Below are positions 19,219-45,604 of a stretch of DNA of 45,604 nucleotides, one piece after another. The stretch is from a virus. The stretch lies in IMG/VR virus record IMGVR_UViG_3300022821_000007, positions 1-45,604 of that record; one strand, 5' to 3'. Each line of letters begins with the position of its first letter. Position 1 is the first letter of the stretch. The position numbers and the translations under genes were made by a program. The notes under the pieces were generated by a model. It did not search any database and was not told where the DNA came from. It saw nothing but the letters and a program-made list of their open reading frames with translations.

Positions 19219-19779
19219 TTAATCTAGTATTGATTTATCAATATATTTTCTTGATGCTAAGTAATCACATAAGTGTACGAAGCATTCTAATTTACTACGT
19301 GGTATAGGTAAGTCAAGTCCACCAGTAGCTTTCCATCTCCCCATGTGAGATGCAATAGCATCAACGATAACTTGAAAGTCTTTCTTACTAATGAACGCTT
19401 GTTCTTGCATACTCCAGTTCAAATGTTGATAAGCAATCATAGGATGGTCTTTAAGTGTATGCTTACTATCTTCTAATCCATACTTGCACATATCATGTAA
19501 GATGATTGCTGCTCTTATCAAATTTTGATCGTGCTCATTAAAGCCATTATCTTTATTAAGTATGAATAGATCTTCTGCAATAGCGAATACTGCCATTGTA
19601 TGCCTTAGTAATCCTTCATCTCCTTCTGCAAACTCTGGATGATACTTTCCAGAACTTGATGCTTCTCTAATAAAGAAAGAGTCTGGTGCGAACTCTAGTG
19701 CTGCAATAACAAATTGAGCAACTCTTTCGTCTGTGATAAATCCTATCTGTGCAGATAGTTTCTTTGTTTCTTCTCTCAT
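19219..19779 (-). CDS. HD-domain phosphohydrolase
   Basis: 186 residues from the ATG at 19779, 4 bases after the polymerase stop; an earlier ATG at 19839 would overlap the polymerase by 56 bases. HD-superfamily metal ligands are visible: His60 (GLLRHTMAVF), His95-Asp96 (AIILHDMCKYG), His145 (SHMGRW) and Asp172 (HLCDYLAS). This arrangement is that of metal-dependent phosphohydrolases acting on nucleotides or RNA ends (YfbR/HDIG-like). Next to nucleotide-metabolism and replication genes, a dNTP or signalling-nucleotide hydrolase is plausible. The substrate cannot be read from sequence. Confidence 0.75.
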   Translation of the reverse strand: MREETKKLSAQIGFITDERVAQFVIAALEFAPDSFFIREASSSGKYHPEFAEGDEGLLRHTMAVFAIAEDLFILNKDNGFNEHDQNLIRAAIILHDMCKYGLEDSKHTLKDHPMIAYQHLNWSMQEQAFISKKDFQVIVDAIASHMGRWKATGGLDLPIPRSKLECFVHLCDYLASRKYIDKSILD

Positions 19780-19783
19780 ATTT

Positions 19784-22087
19784 TTATATTTTTCTTTTAC
19801 GTCTTCCTTTCTCTTCTTCGAAGTACTGCTCCCAATCATGTCCAGGATAAGCGCTAAAGAGTATTCTTTCTAGGATTGCGAATATCTTCGTATTCCAATA
19901 ATACGTCGTATCGTAATCATCTAAATAATTATATACACTGCAAGCTGTAATACCTTGTCCTCTTACTTTACCTGTTACGATGTATTTGACGTAACATCCT
20001 TTCTCCCAACTGTTATATCCTCCTTCTGTCTTCCCATTATCTCTTAACCATTTAGCAACTTTAACATGAGGTAATTTTGATTCTACTATAACTTCGTTTC
20101 CACTCTTATCGAACTTCTTCTTGTCATAGTCTTTAACATCCTTTGCTAATTTGATTTGTAGTGTTACTGTTTTCTTTTTAAGTTTGCCTGCTACTACTTT
20201 CTTCTTTATCTTTTTAAGCCAATTGATAATATCAGTCTGTGAACAATTGTCTAAGAGCATCATCTTGAATAACCTTCGTTGATACTTAGCAGCTATCGGT
20301 AATGTTTCTCTTCTCCTTTCTTCAAATCCTACAATCTTTAATTCTCCTTCCTCTACTTTAACGTATTTCTTTTTGACTGAAGTAAGTAAGACCTTCTCGT
20401 AGATTGCTTCTACTTTCAAATCAATATGACTAGTAATAACTCCGAAATGTTTAAACAAATGATATGCTATGAATTGATTAATCTCTAGTCTGAATGCATC
20501 TGGGTCTATTACATGGTCCATTGTAACAAAGACTGAATCAGTATCTCCATATAATACTTGACCTCCTGCTTCTTCAACGTATGCTTTAGCTAAGTAGATT
20601 AAGTAATGACCTGACAATGTAATTGCTTCTGCATTCTCTCTCCTGTAGTATCGAGTGAATCTAGCTCCTAGTATTCCATAGAATGAATTACTCATTGTCT
20701 TAAAAGCATACTGCTTAAAATATAGTGTTTCGTATTCTGGGTGATCATGCTCCATGTCTTTCATCACTCCATTCCTTATATCATTTCTAGCTGTTAACAA
20801 TCCTGTTATAATCTTGGGTATTATTCCTTCCTTCTTGTAGAACGTTTGCTCATTAGGAGAACTAACATCTTTGGAAGTCCTACGACGGTCTCTCCAAGTC
20901 TCAGGAGAAATATTAAAGGTCCTGATAATGCTAGGATAAAGACTAGTGAAATCAAAATGATAAACATCAGGATGAGTTCCAGGAATAGGTTCCAGCACGA
21001 TCCCTCCCTTATATTTATTATCGTTGTTCCCGTAGTTGTCCTGGCTCCAAGCTGGCTTAGTAGGAAATCTGGTACCGTCAGGAGAATTTCGTAGTATGTA
21101 CATATCCAAGATTCTAGATATTGCATATTCGTTCATGAAGCAACCAGTGATTGAACACTCAATCGCTTTCTGCCTACTTATTTTTAATTTATTATCTAAC
21201 TTAAGTAATAACATAACATCTTGTATGTTATACTCTTTCAATTTCTTAGGATTCTCTGTGTATAATTCCCATATCGTTTCGTCATGCTGCACTTTAGATT
21301 CTCCTAGTATTACATTTGATACTTCTTGAAGAGCAAAGCTTCTGACTTTCTTAATCAAGTCAATGTTTCTTTTATTAATCTCCATCATCTTTTGCATTAA
21401 GTCTAACTGAATCATCTGCCTCCAGTCATACCAGATCTTTAACTTCTTTGATCTTGCTTGTATGTATGGAACATCGAATCCTTCTGAATGCCAACCAGCT
21501 ACTACATCGTACTTTTCTATCCATCTGTAGAAATTATGTAAGATCTTCTTCTCGTCTTTGCAAGATGTATAATAGACTCTACCTTCTTGATTAACTCCTG
21601 CTATCGATACGATTCTGTCTCTGCCTATTTCTATTCCCTTTCCTCTGTCATCTGTTTCAATATCAAAATATAAGAGCCTAGGTTCTGTCTCTATTGGTAG
21701 CTTATGATCTATCAAGCATCGTTGAGCAGAATTAAGATCTGCTTCGTATGTTTTAATTCCTAAGACTTTAAGTTCTGACATGACTTCTTTCTTAGGATCT
21801 AAGACTCTTTGATTAACTGTCTTGCAGTATATCCTTACGAACTTACCTTCTCTAACCATTTTCAATATGAGTCCTTCTTTCTCGAAACTCTTTAACTCGT
21901 GCTGAATATCTTTAGCATCTCTGAATGTTATACAGAAGTAGTACGGATAGTCAGTTATAGTCAAGTAATTTCTACCACGATCATTTCGGTATACAAGAGT
22001 CACATCTTCTCTCTCTGTAAATGCTATGATATATGGACGAAACGTCTCTTTTAAGAATTGTTTGTATGTTACTACTCTTTTATTCAT
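19784..22087 (-). CDS. Family B DNA polymerase with 3'-5' exonuclease
   Basis: 767 residues. Exonuclease motifs: FDIET (141-145), VVAGWHSEGFDVPYI (195-209), EYNIQDV (285-291). Polymerase motifs: A, FDFTSLYPSII (378-388); B, KTMSNSFYG (463-471); C, YGDTDS (513-518); and KKKYV (572-576), equivalent to the KKRY template-grip motif. The length and the lack of terminal-protein insertions argue for an RNA-primed replicative enzyme, fed by the PrimPol-helicase at 25154. The thymidylate-synthase-family gene ends 1 base upstream, and the HD gene follows after 4 bases. Complete and probably active. Confidence 0.93.
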   Translation of the reverse strand: MNKRVVTYKQFLKETFRPYIIAFTEREDVTLVYRNDRGRNYLTITDYPYYFCITFRDAKDIQHELKSFEKEGLILKMVREGKFVRIYCKTVNQRVLDPKKEVMSELKVLGIKTYEADLNSAQRCLIDHKLPIETEPRLLYFDIETDDRGKGIEIGRDRIVSIAGVNQEGRVYYTSCKDEKKILHNFYRWIEKYDVVAGWHSEGFDVPYIQARSKKLKIWYDWRQMIQLDLMQKMMEINKRNIDLIKKVRSFALQEVSNVILGESKVQHDETIWELYTENPKKLKEYNIQDVMLLLKLDNKLKISRQKAIECSITGCFMNEYAISRILDMYILRNSPDGTRFPTKPAWSQDNYGNNDNKYKGGIVLEPIPGTHPDVYHFDFTSLYPSIIRTFNISPETWRDRRRTSKDVSSPNEQTFYKKEGIIPKIITGLLTARNDIRNGVMKDMEHDHPEYETLYFKQYAFKTMSNSFYGILGARFTRYYRRENAEAITLSGHYLIYLAKAYVEEAGGQVLYGDTDSVFVTMDHVIDPDAFRLEINQFIAYHLFKHFGVITSHIDLKVEAIYEKVLLTSVKKKYVKVEEGELKIVGFEERRRETLPIAAKYQRRLFKMMLLDNCSQTDIINWLKKIKKKVVAGKLKKKTVTLQIKLAKDVKDYDKKKFDKSGNEVIVESKLPHVKVAKWLRDNGKTEGGYNSWEKGCYVKYIVTGKVRGQGITACSVYNYLDDYDTTYYWNTKIFAILERILFSAYPGHDWEQYFEEEKGRRKRKI

Positions 22088-22088
22088 A

Positions 22089-22790
22089 TTAGTAATTCAT
22101 TAATTTATCCCAATCGCGTTTGTAAATATGTAAAGATGATGCGAACATAATAAACTTACCAACTGGTATTCCTAGCTCGTTAGCCATCCATTCTTGCAAT
22201 GCTATAGCTAACCAGATATCATTCTGGAAGTGAGTAGCAAAGTCTGTACTTCGCATATTGTAAATTATATCTAAGCTACCATCTCTTTTCATGAAGTGAT
22301 AGAACATTGAGCATGGTATTCTTTTCAGTCCCATTCTGTATTGGTCTATGTGTCTATCATGTATTTGAATAATAGCTTGCCTTGTTTCTGGATTATCTTG
22401 AAGCTCTTGCTTAACTCTTTTCAATTGCCAACACATTCTCTCTGAATATGTGTACTCGAAAGTTAATTCGTTAGTTAAGTTATTCTTTACTAAGAACTCG
22501 TTCCATACATCTTCTCTTATCTTATATGCATTACCAGGATTAACTTCTTTCAGACTGATTCTCTCTTTAAACTCTGCCAGACACCATGCTTGAGTAACAA
22601 GTGGCATCTTGTCTTTATCTGCTACATCTAATATGGTAAATGAAAATGCTTGTATCTCTCTTGTATTAAATTCTTCGTCTGAAGAAATACGTTTATTCTG
22701 CATCGTCTGCGTATGTACAGTCGATGCACATTTCTTAAGCTCGCGAGCAATATCATTGATAGCCATGCGACATGTTTCGTATATTCTCAT
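22089..22790 (-). CDS. Thymidylate-synthase-family enzyme, probably dCMP hydroxymethylase-like
   Basis: 233 residues. The catalytic block aligns without gaps to E. coli ThyA: Cys160 (RIPCSMFY; Cys146), Arg180-Ser181-x-Asp183 (Arg166, Ser167, Asp169), His221-x-Tyr223 (SLHIY; His207, Tyr209). At the position of ThyA Asn177, which selects dUMP, this protein has Asp191 (FQNDIW). Asp here is the known hallmark of phage dCMP hydroxymethylases such as T4 gp42. So the substrate is more likely dCMP than dUMP, giving 5-hydroxymethyl-dCMP or methyl-dCMP. An Asn (190) directly precedes, so a one-residue shift would weaken the argument. It is shorter than ThyA (264). Its neighbours are a dUTPase/dCTPase-like gene and a dNMP kinase. 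Confidence 0.75.
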   Translation of the reverse strand: MRIYETCRMAINDIARELKKCASTVHTQTMQNKRISSDEEFNTREIQAFSFTILDVADKDKMPLVTQAWCLAEFKERISLKEVNPGNAYKIREDVWNEFLVKNNLTNELTFEYTYSERMCWQLKRVKQELQDNPETRQAIIQIHDRHIDQYRMGLKRIPCSMFYHFMKRDGSLDIIYNMRSTDFATHFQNDIWLAIALQEWMANELGIPVGKFIMFASSLHIYKRDWDKLMNY

Positions 22791-22794
22791 AAGA

Positions 22795-23028
22795 TTATGA
22801 TTTAACTGGCGTCCAGTTTTTTATTTTCTTAGGATCTACTTTCATTATACACTTAGGATTAGTGCAAACATAAGTAGCTGTGTCATGTTGAGGAGCAACT
22901 AACTTCTGTTCCTCAACGATCTTTCGATACCTAACTAATTTCTGTTGCTTGAATTTACATTCAGGGCAAGTATGTAGTACGATCTCTATTAGAGATTCAT
23001 TAGTACTTTGATTTAATTCGTTTCTCAT
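22795..23028 (-). CDS. Zinc-ribbon protein
   Basis: 77 residues with two cysteine pairs, CPEC (about 21-24) and CTNPKC (about 55-60), separated by a basic stretch (KQQKLVRYRKIVEEQ). This is the pattern of a four-cysteine zinc ribbon such as those in transcription-factor or RNA-polymerase-associated phage proteins. It starts 29 bases inside the end of the dUTPase-like gene and ends 4 bases before the thymidylate-synthase-family gene. It may be a DNA-binding regulator; function unknown. Confidence 0.5.
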   Translation of the reverse strand: MRNELNQSTNESLIEIVLHTCPECKFKQQKLVRYRKIVEEQKLVAPQHDTATYVCTNPKCIMKVDPKKIKNWTPVKS

Positions 23029-23419
23029 TGACTTTTATTTTCTTCAGCACTAGTGTAGCTAATAATTCAGGGTCTATTCCTGATGCGAAACATGCATTAA
23101 TAAAATAGATCATAATATCTGCTACTTCATCGTAGTACTCGTTGATATCTGTGAAATACTTTGTTTGTCTCCATGTCTTTGCATTATTAAGTGCAACTAC
23201 TGCCTCGTTAATCTCCTGGATCATTCTCCAGAAAATGTTATTATTAATATGTTTACATACTTCTGGAGAATGTAAGTTCTTTCCATCTCCAAAAAGTAAT
23301 CTAGTTGGGAAACCTTCTATCTCTCCAAACTTCTTCTCGACTTCTTCCTGTGCTTTAAACATTTGTATAAGTAGATCTTTCTTTGGATCTGCTTTGATTG
23401 GCTCGTCTTTTATATTCAT
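23000..23419 (-). CDS. All-alpha NTP pyrophosphatase (dUTPase/dCTPase-like)
   Basis: 139 residues. The MazG/dimeric-dUTPase metal motifs are visible: RMIQEINEAVVALNN (Glu69, Glu72) and YYDEVADIMIYF (Glu98, Asp101), followed by LKKIKVNEKR (Lys-x4-Asn-x2-Arg) as in dimeric dUTPases. The family hydrolyses dUTP, dCTP or related dNTPs to monophosphates. In T4, such an enzyme (gp56) removes dCTP and supplies dCMP to the hydroxymethylase. The adjacent kinase and thymidylate-synthase-family gene fit the same pathway. The start ATG overlaps the kinase stop (ATGA). Confidence 0.7.
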   Translation of the reverse strand: MNIKDEPIKADPKKDLLIQMFKAQEEVEKKFGEIEGFPTRLLFGDGKNLHSPEVCKHINNNIFWRMIQEINEAVVALNNAKTWRQTKYFTDINEYYDEVADIMIYFINACFASGIDPELLATLVLKKIKVNEKRIKSKY

Positions 23420-23946
23420 AGTAGTTTAGAGTTTTTATAAATAAAGTCATAAGCTTGTTTAACAACTGCTGCTCTTGATACATCTCCATCAATATATACT
23501 TTCCTAAGACAAGAGTTATATACTACACTTTTGTATTTAGCAAGAATTGGTTGGATGTGATGTTCTCGTAAGAAATCTTCTTTCTCTGTTTCAAATCTCT
23601 TGATTATAGTTTCTACGTTAGTACTCATCTTCATTAGTAGCATTCTGTCTCTGTGTTGGTATTCAAATCTCTCCCAATCAAATAACAATGCAGGCTTATA
23701 GTTTCTCAAGACTGCTCCATATACTAACTCTGTAATATGACTTCTGTCAAAGATGTGAAATGTATCTGGTCTTTCTAATGCATAGTTATAAAGACCTCTG
23801 TATATTCCAATAGTCTGCTGACCACTTGCTAAAGTATTATCAGGCTTGATTGTGTTTTTATAAATTGTAGCAGGGATGAGGCGAGAGAGCCCTCTGATTA
23901 GTGACGATTTTCCACTTTTGTCAATTCCTTCAATTAATATAATCAT
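23416..23946 (-). CDS. Deoxynucleotide (dTMP-like) kinase
   Basis: 176 residues. P-loop GIDKSGKSS (7-15), a DRSH motif at about 67-70 equivalent to the DR(Y/W) of thymidylate kinases, and a lid-like basic segment at about 110-130 (IIKRFETEKEDFLREH). Phages use such kinases to phosphorylate dTMP or modified dNMPs. Next to a dCMP-hydroxymethylase-like enzyme and a dNTP pyrophosphatase, phosphorylation of hydroxymethyl-dCMP (as T4 gp1 does) is a reasonable proposal. It overlaps neighbours on both sides by 4 bases. Confidence 0.75.
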   Translation of the reverse strand: MIILIEGIDKSGKSSLIRGLSRLIPATIYKNTIKPDNTLASGQQTIGIYRGLYNYALERPDTFHIFDRSHITELVYGAVLRNYKPALLFDWERFEYQHRDRMLLMKMSTNVETIIKRFETEKEDFLREHHIQPILAKYKSVVYNSCLRKVYIDGDVSRAAVVKQAYDFIYKNSKLL

Positions 23947-24431
23947 AATTGTTTACCCCTTAAATTCAACCGAGTCATTCTCTCTTGTAATTTAAGTTGC
24001 TTCTTAAAGATTAAGTCATTCTTTCTTCTCTTAATCATAAATGCTTTCGATGTTCCTTGTCCTATCAGATGCTCTCTTTTCTCGAATGTAAGAATTAACT
24101 TTGCTCTTTCTCTCTTTACTATTAAATAAGGAAACATCGCTTTAGTTATACATTGTATAGAATCAGTTGAAGTTGAACTCCATGAATAAAGATCTTTGTG
24201 CCTTGGGTTCATTCTTCTCCTTTCTTTTATTCTACCCCCAATATTTTTTCGTATATATTTTAAAGCATTTAAATCAGTATTGGATATCGACATACCAATA
24301 TGGAGAGAAGGACGCCCATTCTTAGAAGTACCGTGTCTTTTAATTCTGAACGCCCCTTCGCCATCGAAGAAACCTGCAAACCAAATTAGAAATGTTTTAT
24401 CGAATTTAGTTTTGATGATTTGTTTCTTCAT
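23943..24431 (-). CDS. LAGLIDADG homing endonuclease
   Basis: 162 residues with one LAGLIDADG-type motif at residues 17-28 (WFAGFFDGEGAF), so it should act as a homodimer. The downstream pattern (ISNTDLNALKYIRKNIGG, SWSSTSTDSIQCI, FPYLIVKRERAKLI) is typical of single-motif intron-type endonucleases. No intron or split gene is visible around it. It is inserted as a free-standing gene between a lysine-rich protein and the kinase, with ATGA overlaps at both ends, so it is translated as part of the operon. The C-terminus is basic. Confidence 0.85.
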   Translation of the reverse strand: MKKQIIKTKFDKTFLIWFAGFFDGEGAFRIKRHGTSKNGRPSLHIGMSISNTDLNALKYIRKNIGGRIKERRRMNPRHKDLYSWSSTSTDSIQCITKAMFPYLIVKRERAKLILTFEKREHLIGQGTSKAFMIKRRKNDLIFKKQLKLQERMTRLNLRGKQL

Positions 24432-27703: not shown

Positions 27704-28336
27704 CTATTTCTTTAACTCTGATTTACGTTTCTGAGCGTAAGCAATTAGATATTCTGATTGAGTATCTGAGAATTTCTTCTGTCCTTTCTTCATTTTCTTA
27801 ACTGCTACTGCGAACTGCTTCTTGTTCTTAGCCATCGTTAAGTTATTGATATGAACTTCAATACCTTCTAACTCTTTCTTACTGATTTTGATACCGAAGT
27901 CATCTGCTTCCTCTTCCTCATCGTCATCATCTTCATCTGCATCTTCGTCATCTTCGTCGTCGTCTTCTTCGTCATCTTCGTCCTCATCATCATCATCATC
28001 ATCATCATCCTCATCATCATCGTCGTCGTCTTCTTCTTCGTCCTCTCCGTCTTCTTCTTCTTCCTCATCGTCTTCGTCCTCTTCTTCTTCGTCTTCTTCA
28101 GTAATAGATGGAAGATAAGCTTTCTGTAATAATGCAAGGTCAGCAATTAACTGTTCATCTAATTCTGCTTTGACTTTCTCAGCATCTTTAGGAGCAATGT
28201 CCATTACACTTGAGCTAACTTCTAAATCGGTAGTTTCGAATTTCTCACCACCTCTAGCTCCGTGACTAAGCTTTTTAACGATACGTCTTGTAATCGTTTG
28301 AGCCTGCTTAGCTAAGACTGATTTATTCTTTGCCAT
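27704..28336 (-). CDS. Acidic low-complexity protein
   Basis: 210 residues. A basic N-terminus (MAKNKSVLAKQAQTITRRIV) leads to an Asp/Glu-only tract of about 70 residues (about 85-150), then a more ordered C-terminus (IKISKKELEGIEVHINNLTM) ending in Lys. The tract makes long serine ORFs on the opposite strand, which are not genes. Acidic phage proteins can mimic DNA or act as chaperones; neither can be shown here. It is the first gene of the replication block, directly upstream of the Cas4-like gene. Confidence 0.5.
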   Translation of the reverse strand: MAKNKSVLAKQAQTITRRIVKKLSHGARGGEKFETTDLEVSSSVMDIAPKDAEKVKAELDEQLIADLALLQKAYLPSITEEDEEEEDEDDEEEEEDGEDEEEDDDDDDEDDDDDDDDEDEDDEEDDDEDDEDADEDDDDEEEEADDFGIKISKKELEGIEVHINNLTMAKNKKQFAVAVKKMKKGQKKFSDTQSEYLIAYAQKRKSELKK

Positions 28337-44214: not shown

Positions 44215-45604
44215 ATGAAGAAAATATTTAACTATGCAATCATTCCTATATTAGCATTGGCTATCGTAGGAATAGTATATGCACAAGCTAGTTCTTTGAT
44301 CTACATCTCTGATGATGGAAATACGAGAATTATAAATCTAGAAGAGAGTGATGTAGCGGGAAGTGGAGGACAGATATATGAACCAACAGCTGTTGATCTT
44401 TCTGATTTAACTTTAGCAGAGAACTCAGTATACAGAGGAGATGCTTCTGATAATCCAGAAGCTACAAGTGATTTAACAATATTGTCAAACGGCAACGTCG
44501 GGATAGGGACAGACACCCCAACCTCTTTATTACACGCAGTCCAAACCTCAACAACAGGAAGCACAGGATATTTTTATAGAAACTTAGCAAGTGCTTCTAC
44601 TGATAGTCCTTTGATGCAGTTAATAAATGACAATGCAGGAGATGACCAGAATGTTCAAACTAATCAAAATGACGGAACAGGTGATACTTTATTTTTAGAC
44701 ACAAACGGTAATACAACTTCATTAAACATAGATAGTGAAGCAACAACAGCTGGTGTCTTTACTTTGGAGTCACTTAATACTTCTGGAAGATTATTATTAG
44801 TTAGAAATTATGGAGCGATGGCTTCAAATGTTTCTAACGCTGTTGCTTCTTTTCAACAAAATTCATCTAGTTCAGGAGGAATTACATTAGAATCTAAGAA
44901 TGCAGGTACAGGAAACACCCAATTCCTAGACACAAACGGAGACGCAATATCTCTAAACATAGACTCCGAATCAACCACTCAGGATATTGTTAATATAGAT
45001 GGAGCCCCATTAACCTCTGGTATAGCACTAGACGTTATAGGTGGTGCAAGTAAAACTGGTACTCTTGGAGTTGCAAGGTTCTTAAATTCTGGTGACGCAA
45101 CCAATGTTTCTATCGACCAAAAGGGTAATGGTATATCTCTAAACATAGACTCCGAAGCAACAACTGCTAATGTAATAACTGTAGGGACTGTAAACACAGA
45201 CAGAGGAGTCAAATTTTTTAGTACTGGAGCATATACAGGTACTACTAACGGTGGTTTTATATTGGCAGAATTAACGAATGCAGCATCTACTCAACCTGTA
45301 TTTTTATCAAGAAATGCTGGAAGTGGTGTAGGATTAAGAATCGACAACAATGGCAATGGCATAGGCTTAGAAATAGACTCCGAAGCAACCTCAGCAACAG
45401 TCCTTAATGTAACAGCAGAAAACACAAGCGGAAACATTATGAATATTGATAGTAAGTTAGTAATGGATTATGAGGGGAATGTAGGAATAAGTACAACTAA
45501 CCCAACTGAACCTTTTACAGTTATTGGAAATAGCCTTTTAAATTCTGTTCTAGTCACAAATGCTGATTCGTCTTTATCTTCTAGCCCATATGTTCTAATA
45601 GCTA
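44215..45604 (+). CDS. Exported repeat-containing surface/tail-fibre protein, N-terminal part (continues at 1-462)
   Basis: The frame is open from ATG 44215 to the window end and continues, in phase, through the terminal repeat to TAA at 460-462: 574 residues in all. A signal peptide is clear (MKKIFNYAIIPILALAIVGI, then VYA). The stem has an NVGIGTDTPTSLLH motif near residue 95 and four copies of a unit with (S)LNIDSEATT (about residues 170, 247, 309, 385), spaced 62-77 residues. Such repeats build trimeric beta-helical fibres. Codons of the first NVGIGT part end more often in C/G than the rest of the genome, suggesting a mosaic origin. Confidence 0.75.
   Translation, partial: MKKIFNYAIIPILALAIVGIVYAQASSLIYISDDGNTRIINLEESDVAGSGGQIYEPTAVDLSDLTLAENSVYRGDASDNPEATSDLTILSNGNVGIGTDTPTSLLHAVQTSTTGSTGYFYRNLASASTDSPLMQLINDNAGDDQNVQTNQNDGTGDTLFLDTNGNTTSLNIDSEATTAGVFTLESLNTSGRLLLVRNYGAMASNVSNAVASFQQNSSSSGGITLESKNAGTGNTQFLDTNGDAISLNIDSESTTQDIVNIDGAPLTSGIALDVIGGASKTGTLGVARFLNSGDATNVSIDQKGNGISLNIDSEATTANVITVGTVNTDRGVKFFSTGAYTGTTNGGFILAELTNAASTQPVFLSRNAGSGVGLRIDNNGNGIGLEIDSEATSATVLNVTAENTSGNIMNIDSKLVMDYEGNVGISTTNPTEPFTVIGNSLLNSVLVTNADSSLSSSPYVLIA
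44722..45400 (+). repeat. Four degenerate (S)LNIDSEATT modules inside the fibre gene
   Basis: TTA/CTA-AAC-ATA-GA(T/C) units begin at 44722, 44953, 45139 and 45367 (the last reads LEIDSEAT). They are 231, 186 and 228 bases apart. Each follows a D.(N/K)G(N) turn, giving a repeat of about 62-77 residues. They share codons (ATAGACTCCGAA in three of four), so unequal recombination could change copy number. Confidence 0.7.
45478..45604. repeat. Right copy of the 127-bp terminal direct repeat
   Basis: Exact copy of bases 1-127. It carries the codons for NVGISTTNPTEPF inside the fibre gene, so the duplicate should be removed when the circle is closed, leaving 45,477 bp. Confidence 0.95.

Follow-up and report, generated by a model that had tools for sequence, protein, structure and literature searches.

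The gene cluster and its genome

The window, that is, the whole stretch of DNA analysed here, is the full record IMGVR_UViG_3300022821_000007 (45,604 nt, G+C 34%). The same 127 bases stand at its two ends (1-127 and 45478-45604), and the terminal ORF runs across both of them. Therefore, the window appears to be a complete tailed-phage genome that maps as a circle of about 45.5 kb. A scan of genome contigs for a host gave a single weak match (28%, Sporosarcina), which is uninformative in this respect. The matches of the family B DNA polymerase (PolB) and the terminase listed in named phages are all below 31% identity and therefore give no host.

Five adjoining ORFs on the minus strand are displayed below.

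19784..22087, minus strand: family B DNA polymerase, directly downstream of the enzyme (PF00136, E=2.1e-45)
22089..22790, minus strand: thymidylate synthase (TS)-superfamily enzyme, 233 aa, predicted dCMP C5-hydroxymethylase (Pfam PF00303, PHROG_160, AlphaFold and Foldseek)
22795..23028, minus strand: 77-aa four-Cys zinc-ribbon-like ORF, between the pyrophosphatase and the enzyme
23000..23419, minus strand: all-alpha NTP pyrophosphatase, predicted dCTPase (dCTP/dUTP to dCMP/dUMP; PHROG_12184)
23416..23946, minus strand: P-loop dNMP kinase, thymidylate-kinase-like (phrog_761)

The 77-aa ORF, the pyrophosphatase, and the kinase lie upstream of the enzyme on the same strand, with ends that overlap or nearly touch. 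The pyrophosphatase and kinase genes are real, with homologues in synteny. They had been described as the next two genes upstream; both are indeed upstream, but as the second and third genes, with the 77-aa ORF intervening. No family match above the cut-off was obtained for this ORF in the Pfam and PHROGs scan, and small Cys-rich ORFs occupy its slot in 3 of the 4 close relatives (L012, L013, and L014).

Several other ORFs can be seen in the surroundings. A LAGLIDADG-type endonuclease ORF (23943-24431) abuts the kinase gene and is probably a recent insertion, since relatives L012-L015 show no match to it at the equivalent place. An HD-domain protein (19219-19839, phrog_5889), possibly a nucleotide phosphohydrolase, overlaps the PolB gene. 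Additionally, the ORF next to the exonuclease gene (27704-28336) encodes 210 aa with a long acidic stretch rich in Asp and Glu, which could act as a DNA mimic or form a disordered linker.

Active site, substrate, and product of the TS-like enzyme

The enzyme matches the Pfam TS family PF00303 with E=1.2e-14 (54.6 bits against a gathering score of 24.3) and PHROG_160 with E=2.7e-28. The TS-superfamily signature, consisting of the Cys nucleophile, Arg-Ser-x-Asp, and His-x-Tyr, is present and is invariant or nearly so in the family. All residues named in the original prediction (Cys160, Arg180-Ser181-Asp183, Asn190-Asp191, His221, and Tyr223) occur at those positions of the 233-aa ORF. By alignment, Cys160 is equivalent to ThyA Cys146, Arg180 to Arg166, Ser181 to Ser167, Asp183 to Asp169, His221 to His207, and Tyr223 to Tyr209. 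The codons of four of its residues are listed below.

22218..22220, minus strand: Asp191 codon (position of ThyA Asn177 and T4 Asp179); Asp in 41/41 family members, Asn190 variable
22242..22244, minus strand: Asp183 codon (ThyA Asp169, T4 Asp171; pterin site); Asp in 41/41, Asn in 5/5 of the AfhB group (dCMP 5-hydroxylases)
22311..22313, minus strand: codon of the nucleophile Cys160 (ThyA Cys146, T4 Cys148); invariant in 41/41
22503..22505, minus strand: Trp96 codon (ThyA Trp80, T4 Trp82; PABA site); Trp in 39/41, absent from AfhB-type enzymes

In the MAFFT alignment with E. coli ThyA and T4 gp42, Asp191 falls in the column of ThyA Asn177 and T4 Asp179 (gp42 reads FRND here). Cys160, Arg180, and Asp191 hold the ThyA spacing without a gap, as had been proposed. 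The same placement was obtained when profiles were compared by hhalign with those of ThyA, T4 gp42, and the Mosigvirus enzyme, and the phmmer alignment to MilA (CMP 5-hydroxymethylase) puts MilA Asp186 at this place. Position 190 is Asn in 31 of the 41 members, the others having Asp, Val, Tyr, or Thr, while position 191 is always Asp, which shows that the placement is not due to chance. The competing placement, Asn190 at the ThyA Asn177 position, was checked by sequence and profile alignment and is ruled out: every aligner used places Asp191 there, and Asn190 varies. It can be seen that the enzyme has Asp where canonical ThyA has Asn, and shares the Asp found in T4 gp42 at position 179.

The pocket has features of its own. 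A family-specific His187 (40 of 41 members) borders the cofactor pocket; the residue at this position is Gly in ThyA and T4 and Val in AfhB. Judged from its residues, the pocket is therefore identical to neither that of ThyA nor that of T4 gp42, and the cofactor geometry may differ. The counterpart of the catalytic Glu (ThyA Glu58, T4 Glu60) is Glu73 or Glu76, the alignment being ambiguous; four distant members have His in the Glu73 column. In the AlphaFold model (pLDDT 95.7), the best Foldseek match against the PDB by E-value is MilA (TM 0.82), followed by AfhB (TM 0.80).

The claim that an Asn to Asp change at this position switches specificity to dCMP agrees with published work: TS with N177 or N229 replaced by Asp switches its activity to dCMP, T4 gp42 needs Asp179, and the SPO1 dUMP-hydroxymethylase retains Asn (PMC8670742, PMC5175136, PMC6400193). 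According to the MetaGPA study, Asp177 is the mark of TS genes located on contigs whose cytosine was shown by experiment to be modified, and PF01503 pyrophosphohydrolases are found together with TS there (PMC8670742). In Microbacterium phage Huwbert, family member gp67 (Asp) adjoins gp68, a canonical ThyA with Asn, and ThyX occurs in two phages carrying family members; the family member is therefore not needed for dTMP in these phages. The invariant Asp and these coexisting synthases support the predicted substrate well, and the enzyme very likely acts on dCMP. Two relatives of this activity were rejected. A dUMP hydroxymethylase is ruled out by Asp at position 177. A CMP hydroxymethylase (MilA/BcmA) is ruled out by Arg137 and Ser181, which match the deoxyribose-preferring enzymes and not the Lys133/Ala176 of MilA.

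The same evidence bears on an ordinary thymidylate module, in which dUMP would be converted to dTMP while a dUTPase and a dTMP kinase boost the dTTP supply. The TMK-like kinase and the presence of dUTPases in the pyrophosphatase superfamily would suit such a module, and no ThyX was found in the window. Databases also label relatives thymidylate synthase and dUTPase, and several copies of the module are annotated plainly as thymidylate synthase, dUTPase, and thymidylate kinase. However, Asp and never Asn occupies position 177 in all 41 members, relatives coexist with canonical ThyA or ThyX, and the C-terminal lid is missing, which makes this reading very improbable.

With regard to the product, Trp82, Asp171, Tyr96, and Tyr218 line the tetrahydrofolate site in the ternary complex of T4 gp42 (PMC6400193). 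All 4 residues are kept in the window enzyme, as Trp96, Asp183, Tyr115, and Tyr223, respectively. Only 10 residues follow His-x-Tyr (28 in T4 gp42 and 55 in ThyA), indicating that the TS C-terminal lid is missing. On this basis, it is reasonably likely that the enzyme makes 5-hydroxymethyl-dCMP with folate. The term hydroxymethylase used in the original prediction is kept as a best guess: the folate-site residues, the separate clade, and the MilA fold match speak for it, but the closest solved structure by sequence is that of a rival, the dCMP 5-hydroxylase AfhB.

AfhB-type 5-hydroxylation, which the original prediction did not take into account, is the main rival. A flavin-dependent enzyme would produce 5-hydroxy-dCMP as in Mosigvirus, and the DNA would contain 5-hydroxycytosine or a derivative. 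A TS-superfamily 5-hodCMP synthase exists in Mosigvirus (PMC13390438). PDB entries 9iqc and 9iqu are titled riboflavin/FAD-dependent dCMP hydroxylase, and their sequences occur in Mosigvirus phages with 100% identity over the matched stretch. The sequence proximity of AfhB amounts to 47 bits for the single sequence and 83 bits for the profile, compared to 57-63 for TS and MilA; moreover, the window kinase resembles kinases of AfhB-type cassettes. However, Asp183 is replaced by Asn in 5/5 of the AfhB group examined here (Mosigvirus moskry, Serratia X20, Acinetobacter DLP3, Shewanella Thanatos, and Tenacibaculum PTm5), and none has Trp at the Trp96 position, whereas the window family has Asp in 41/41 and Trp in 39/41. 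This combination, Asn at ThyA-169 with loss of Trp80, is a pattern seen in these five members rather than a published definition, and the window enzyme lacks it. In the tree, the AfhB group and the window family are split at 99/95, and counterparts of the sugar-nucleotide genes of AfhB cassettes were not found in the window. The 5-hydroxylase reading is thus rather unlikely. Against the hydroxymethylase reading, the window clade is not grouped with T4 gp42 in the tree, the gp42 branch being too long to place.

A dCMP methylase would use the same chemistry followed by hydride transfer, giving 5-methyl-dCMP like the engineered TS N229D. Asp177 alone turns TS into a dCMP methylase, as the work of Liu and Santi is cited in PMC8670742, and among TS structures the profile matches best the N229D mutant from L. 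casei, which was crystallised with dCMP. The lid of TS is missing as in T4 gp42, however, and methylation is improbable. We favour a hydroxymethylase over a hydroxylase or methylase on the combined basis of the folate-site residues, the separate clade, the MilA fold, and the missing lid. Since 5-hydroxylases share Asp177, this residue alone no longer means "hydroxymethylase", and the cofactor-site residues therefore need checking too.

Partner genes and conservation of the module

The pyrophosphatase matches PHROG_12184 with E=8e-14 and PF01503 weakly. The HMM of its 17-member family matches T4 gp56 with E=5e-5 (Z=100,000), the match running through the C-terminal metal-site and KN-NxxRQ-Y region; the HMM of the five-member close clade alone gives a non-significant E=2 against gp56. 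Its model (pLDDT 88.7) is closest to the human dCTP pyrophosphatase DCTPP1, with a probability of 1.00 but an E of 0.024. In terms of profile similarity, the pyrophosphatase and T4 gp56 are distant homologues; gp56 takes both dCTP and dUTP according to its record annotation. The earlier description as a dUTPase/dCTPase-like pyrophosphatase agrees with the HMM match to gp56 and the likeness of the model to DCTPP1. The kinase matches the thymidylate kinase family phrog_761 with E=2.9e-13, and its profile matches YorR and TMK in the PDB; T4 gp1 was not among the matches of the kinase HMM.

The order kinase, pyrophosphatase, enzyme, PolB is kept in four relatives (L012-L015), whose enzymes are 59-67% identical to that of the window. 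A pyrophosphatase is found upstream of the enzyme in 31 of the 34 viral loci, some of which are near copies. Annotated kinase and pyrophosphatase genes also lie by the family members of Gordonia HippoPololi, Microbacterium Huwbert, Brevundimonas Strzyga, and a Manatee Spring phage. In Rhizobium RHph_I9, both genes lie beside a TS-like gene whose product is nearer to the AfhB group in the tree. This retention of gene order and neighbourhood indicates that the module is a recurring unit. By eye, a cytosine-C5-methyltransferase-like ORF is seen between the pyrophosphatase and the enzyme at L017:4910-5998, where others have a TS-like paralog, and uracil-DNA-glycosylase-like ORFs lie beside the module at L031:3460-4044, L045:5468-6004, and L014:3077-3703.

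A further protein of about 250-340 aa is encoded close to the enzyme in 24 of the 34 loci (leaving out one further HMM match in L027, which is the enzyme ORF itself) and in HippoPololi, Huwbert, Strzyga, and DP SC_2; its gene usually lies between those of the enzyme and the pyrophosphatase. Where tested, it belongs to phrog_13667 or phrog_34294, both of unknown function, with no Pfam match. Examples of this TS-like paralog are as follows.

L016:4915-5793, TS-like paralog
L018:5124-6017, TS-like paralog
L035:5121-6026, TS-like paralog
L038:4607-5506, TS-like paralog
L045:4618-5466, TS-like paralog
L063:2395-3423, TS-like paralog
L066:2994-3902, TS-like paralog
L010:7182-8174, TS-like paralog

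Tyr72, Cys116, Arg135, and Asp146 are invariant in the alignment of these proteins. Its Arg and Asp are 11 residues apart, exactly as Arg166 and Asn177 are in TS, and over this stretch the paralog profile aligns to the enzyme (E 4.8e-6, probability 86%). From its sequence, the protein looks like a diverged TS paralog, and it is possibly a partner subunit of the dCMP enzyme. Neither the window nor the four closest relatives nor contigs G001-G003 gave a match to it; in its place, 3 of these 4 relatives have, like the window, a small Cys-rich ORF.

These observations could fit a separate phage dCMP-modifying clade with its own signature, His187 and HTQTMQ-N/D-K. Most members would use the second TS-like protein (phrog_13667) and may make a modification other than 5hmC or 5-hydroxycytosine, and the window subclade would have dropped the partner and have the zinc-ribbon protein instead. 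We regard this version as rather unlikely, with a small but appreciable chance of being correct.

Proposed pathway and comparison with known systems

The hydroxymethylase reading leads to a pathway in which three genes would make a modified cytosine nucleotide ahead of replication. The pyrophosphatase would remove dCTP, and probably dUTP too, yielding dCMP. In the TS-like enzyme, Cys160 would attack C6 of dCMP while Asp191 orients the cytosine, and a methylene group would be taken from 5,10-methylene-tetrahydrofolate. Without the TS C-terminal lid, water would then attack to give 5-hydroxymethyl-dCMP. The TMK-like kinase would phosphorylate this product, and the host NDP kinase would convert it to the triphosphate. 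Finally, the phage PolB would incorporate the modified triphosphate instead of dCTP, for which it would have to accept the modified dNTP. Since the Asp-marked dCMP enzyme adjoins a predicted dCTP-removing enzyme and a nucleotide kinase, the phage DNA probably carries chemically altered cytosine.

Pfam and PHROGs scans of window ORFs revealed no glycosyltransferase, carbamoyltransferase, or sugar-nucleotide gene, in agreement with the original observation that no glucosyltransferase was seen. A hidden glycosyltransferase or carbamoyltransferase was considered as well and rejected on these scans. Because the genome looks complete, the absence is meaningful, but for recognisable families only. 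With no sugar-transfer gene found in the window, the DNA would contain plain 5hmC, or a decoration supplied by the host or by an unrecognised phage gene. Among the relatives, a 955-aa GT2/TPR/methyltransferase protein occurs in G003 (L056:7420-10287), the only one where it was seen; it is a candidate decorator or a surface-glycan gene.

The strategy of modifying cytosine before replication is itself already known. If the pathway is true, cytosine is replaced or marked in small phages of 40-47 kb that have been seen only in metagenomes, by means of a compact gene set that has no recognised sugar decoration. It would also follow that pre-replicative cytosine modification reaches well beyond T4-like phages and involves a new enzyme clade.

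Compared to known systems, several likenesses and differences can be observed. The Asp177 TS group of MetaGPA (PMC8670742) shares Asp177 and the pairing with a PF01503-type pyrophosphohydrolase, but is often accompanied by carbamoyltransferase or deaminase domains, neither of which was found in the window. The AfhB enzymes of Mosigvirus (9iqc, 9iqu) are alike in size, short C-terminus, and Asp at position 177; they differ in having Asn for Asp183 and no Trp96, in being FAD-dependent by PDB title, and in being flanked by sugar-nucleotide genes. MilA (PDB 5jnh) is the best Foldseek match and has Asp186 at the same position, whereas its Lys133 and Ala176 (ribose preference) contrast with Arg137 and Ser181 of the window enzyme (deoxyribose).

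The original prediction had equated the three genes with the T4 trio of gp42, gp56, and gp1. This holds by function only: the pyrophosphatase is distantly homologous to gp56, and the TS-like enzyme is a diverged member of the same superfamily as gp42. The kinase is analogous, being TMK-like, of another family, and without a match to gp1. Also, identity to gp42 is 24% in the aligned part, the window family has His187 and the HTQTMQ(N/D)K motif, no glucosyltransferase was found in the window, and the genes for gp42, gp56, and gp1 lie apart in T4, whereas the three window genes are clustered. The TS fold, Asp at 177, the absence of a TS-type lid, the folate-site Trp and Asp, and the order of steps are alike in the two systems.
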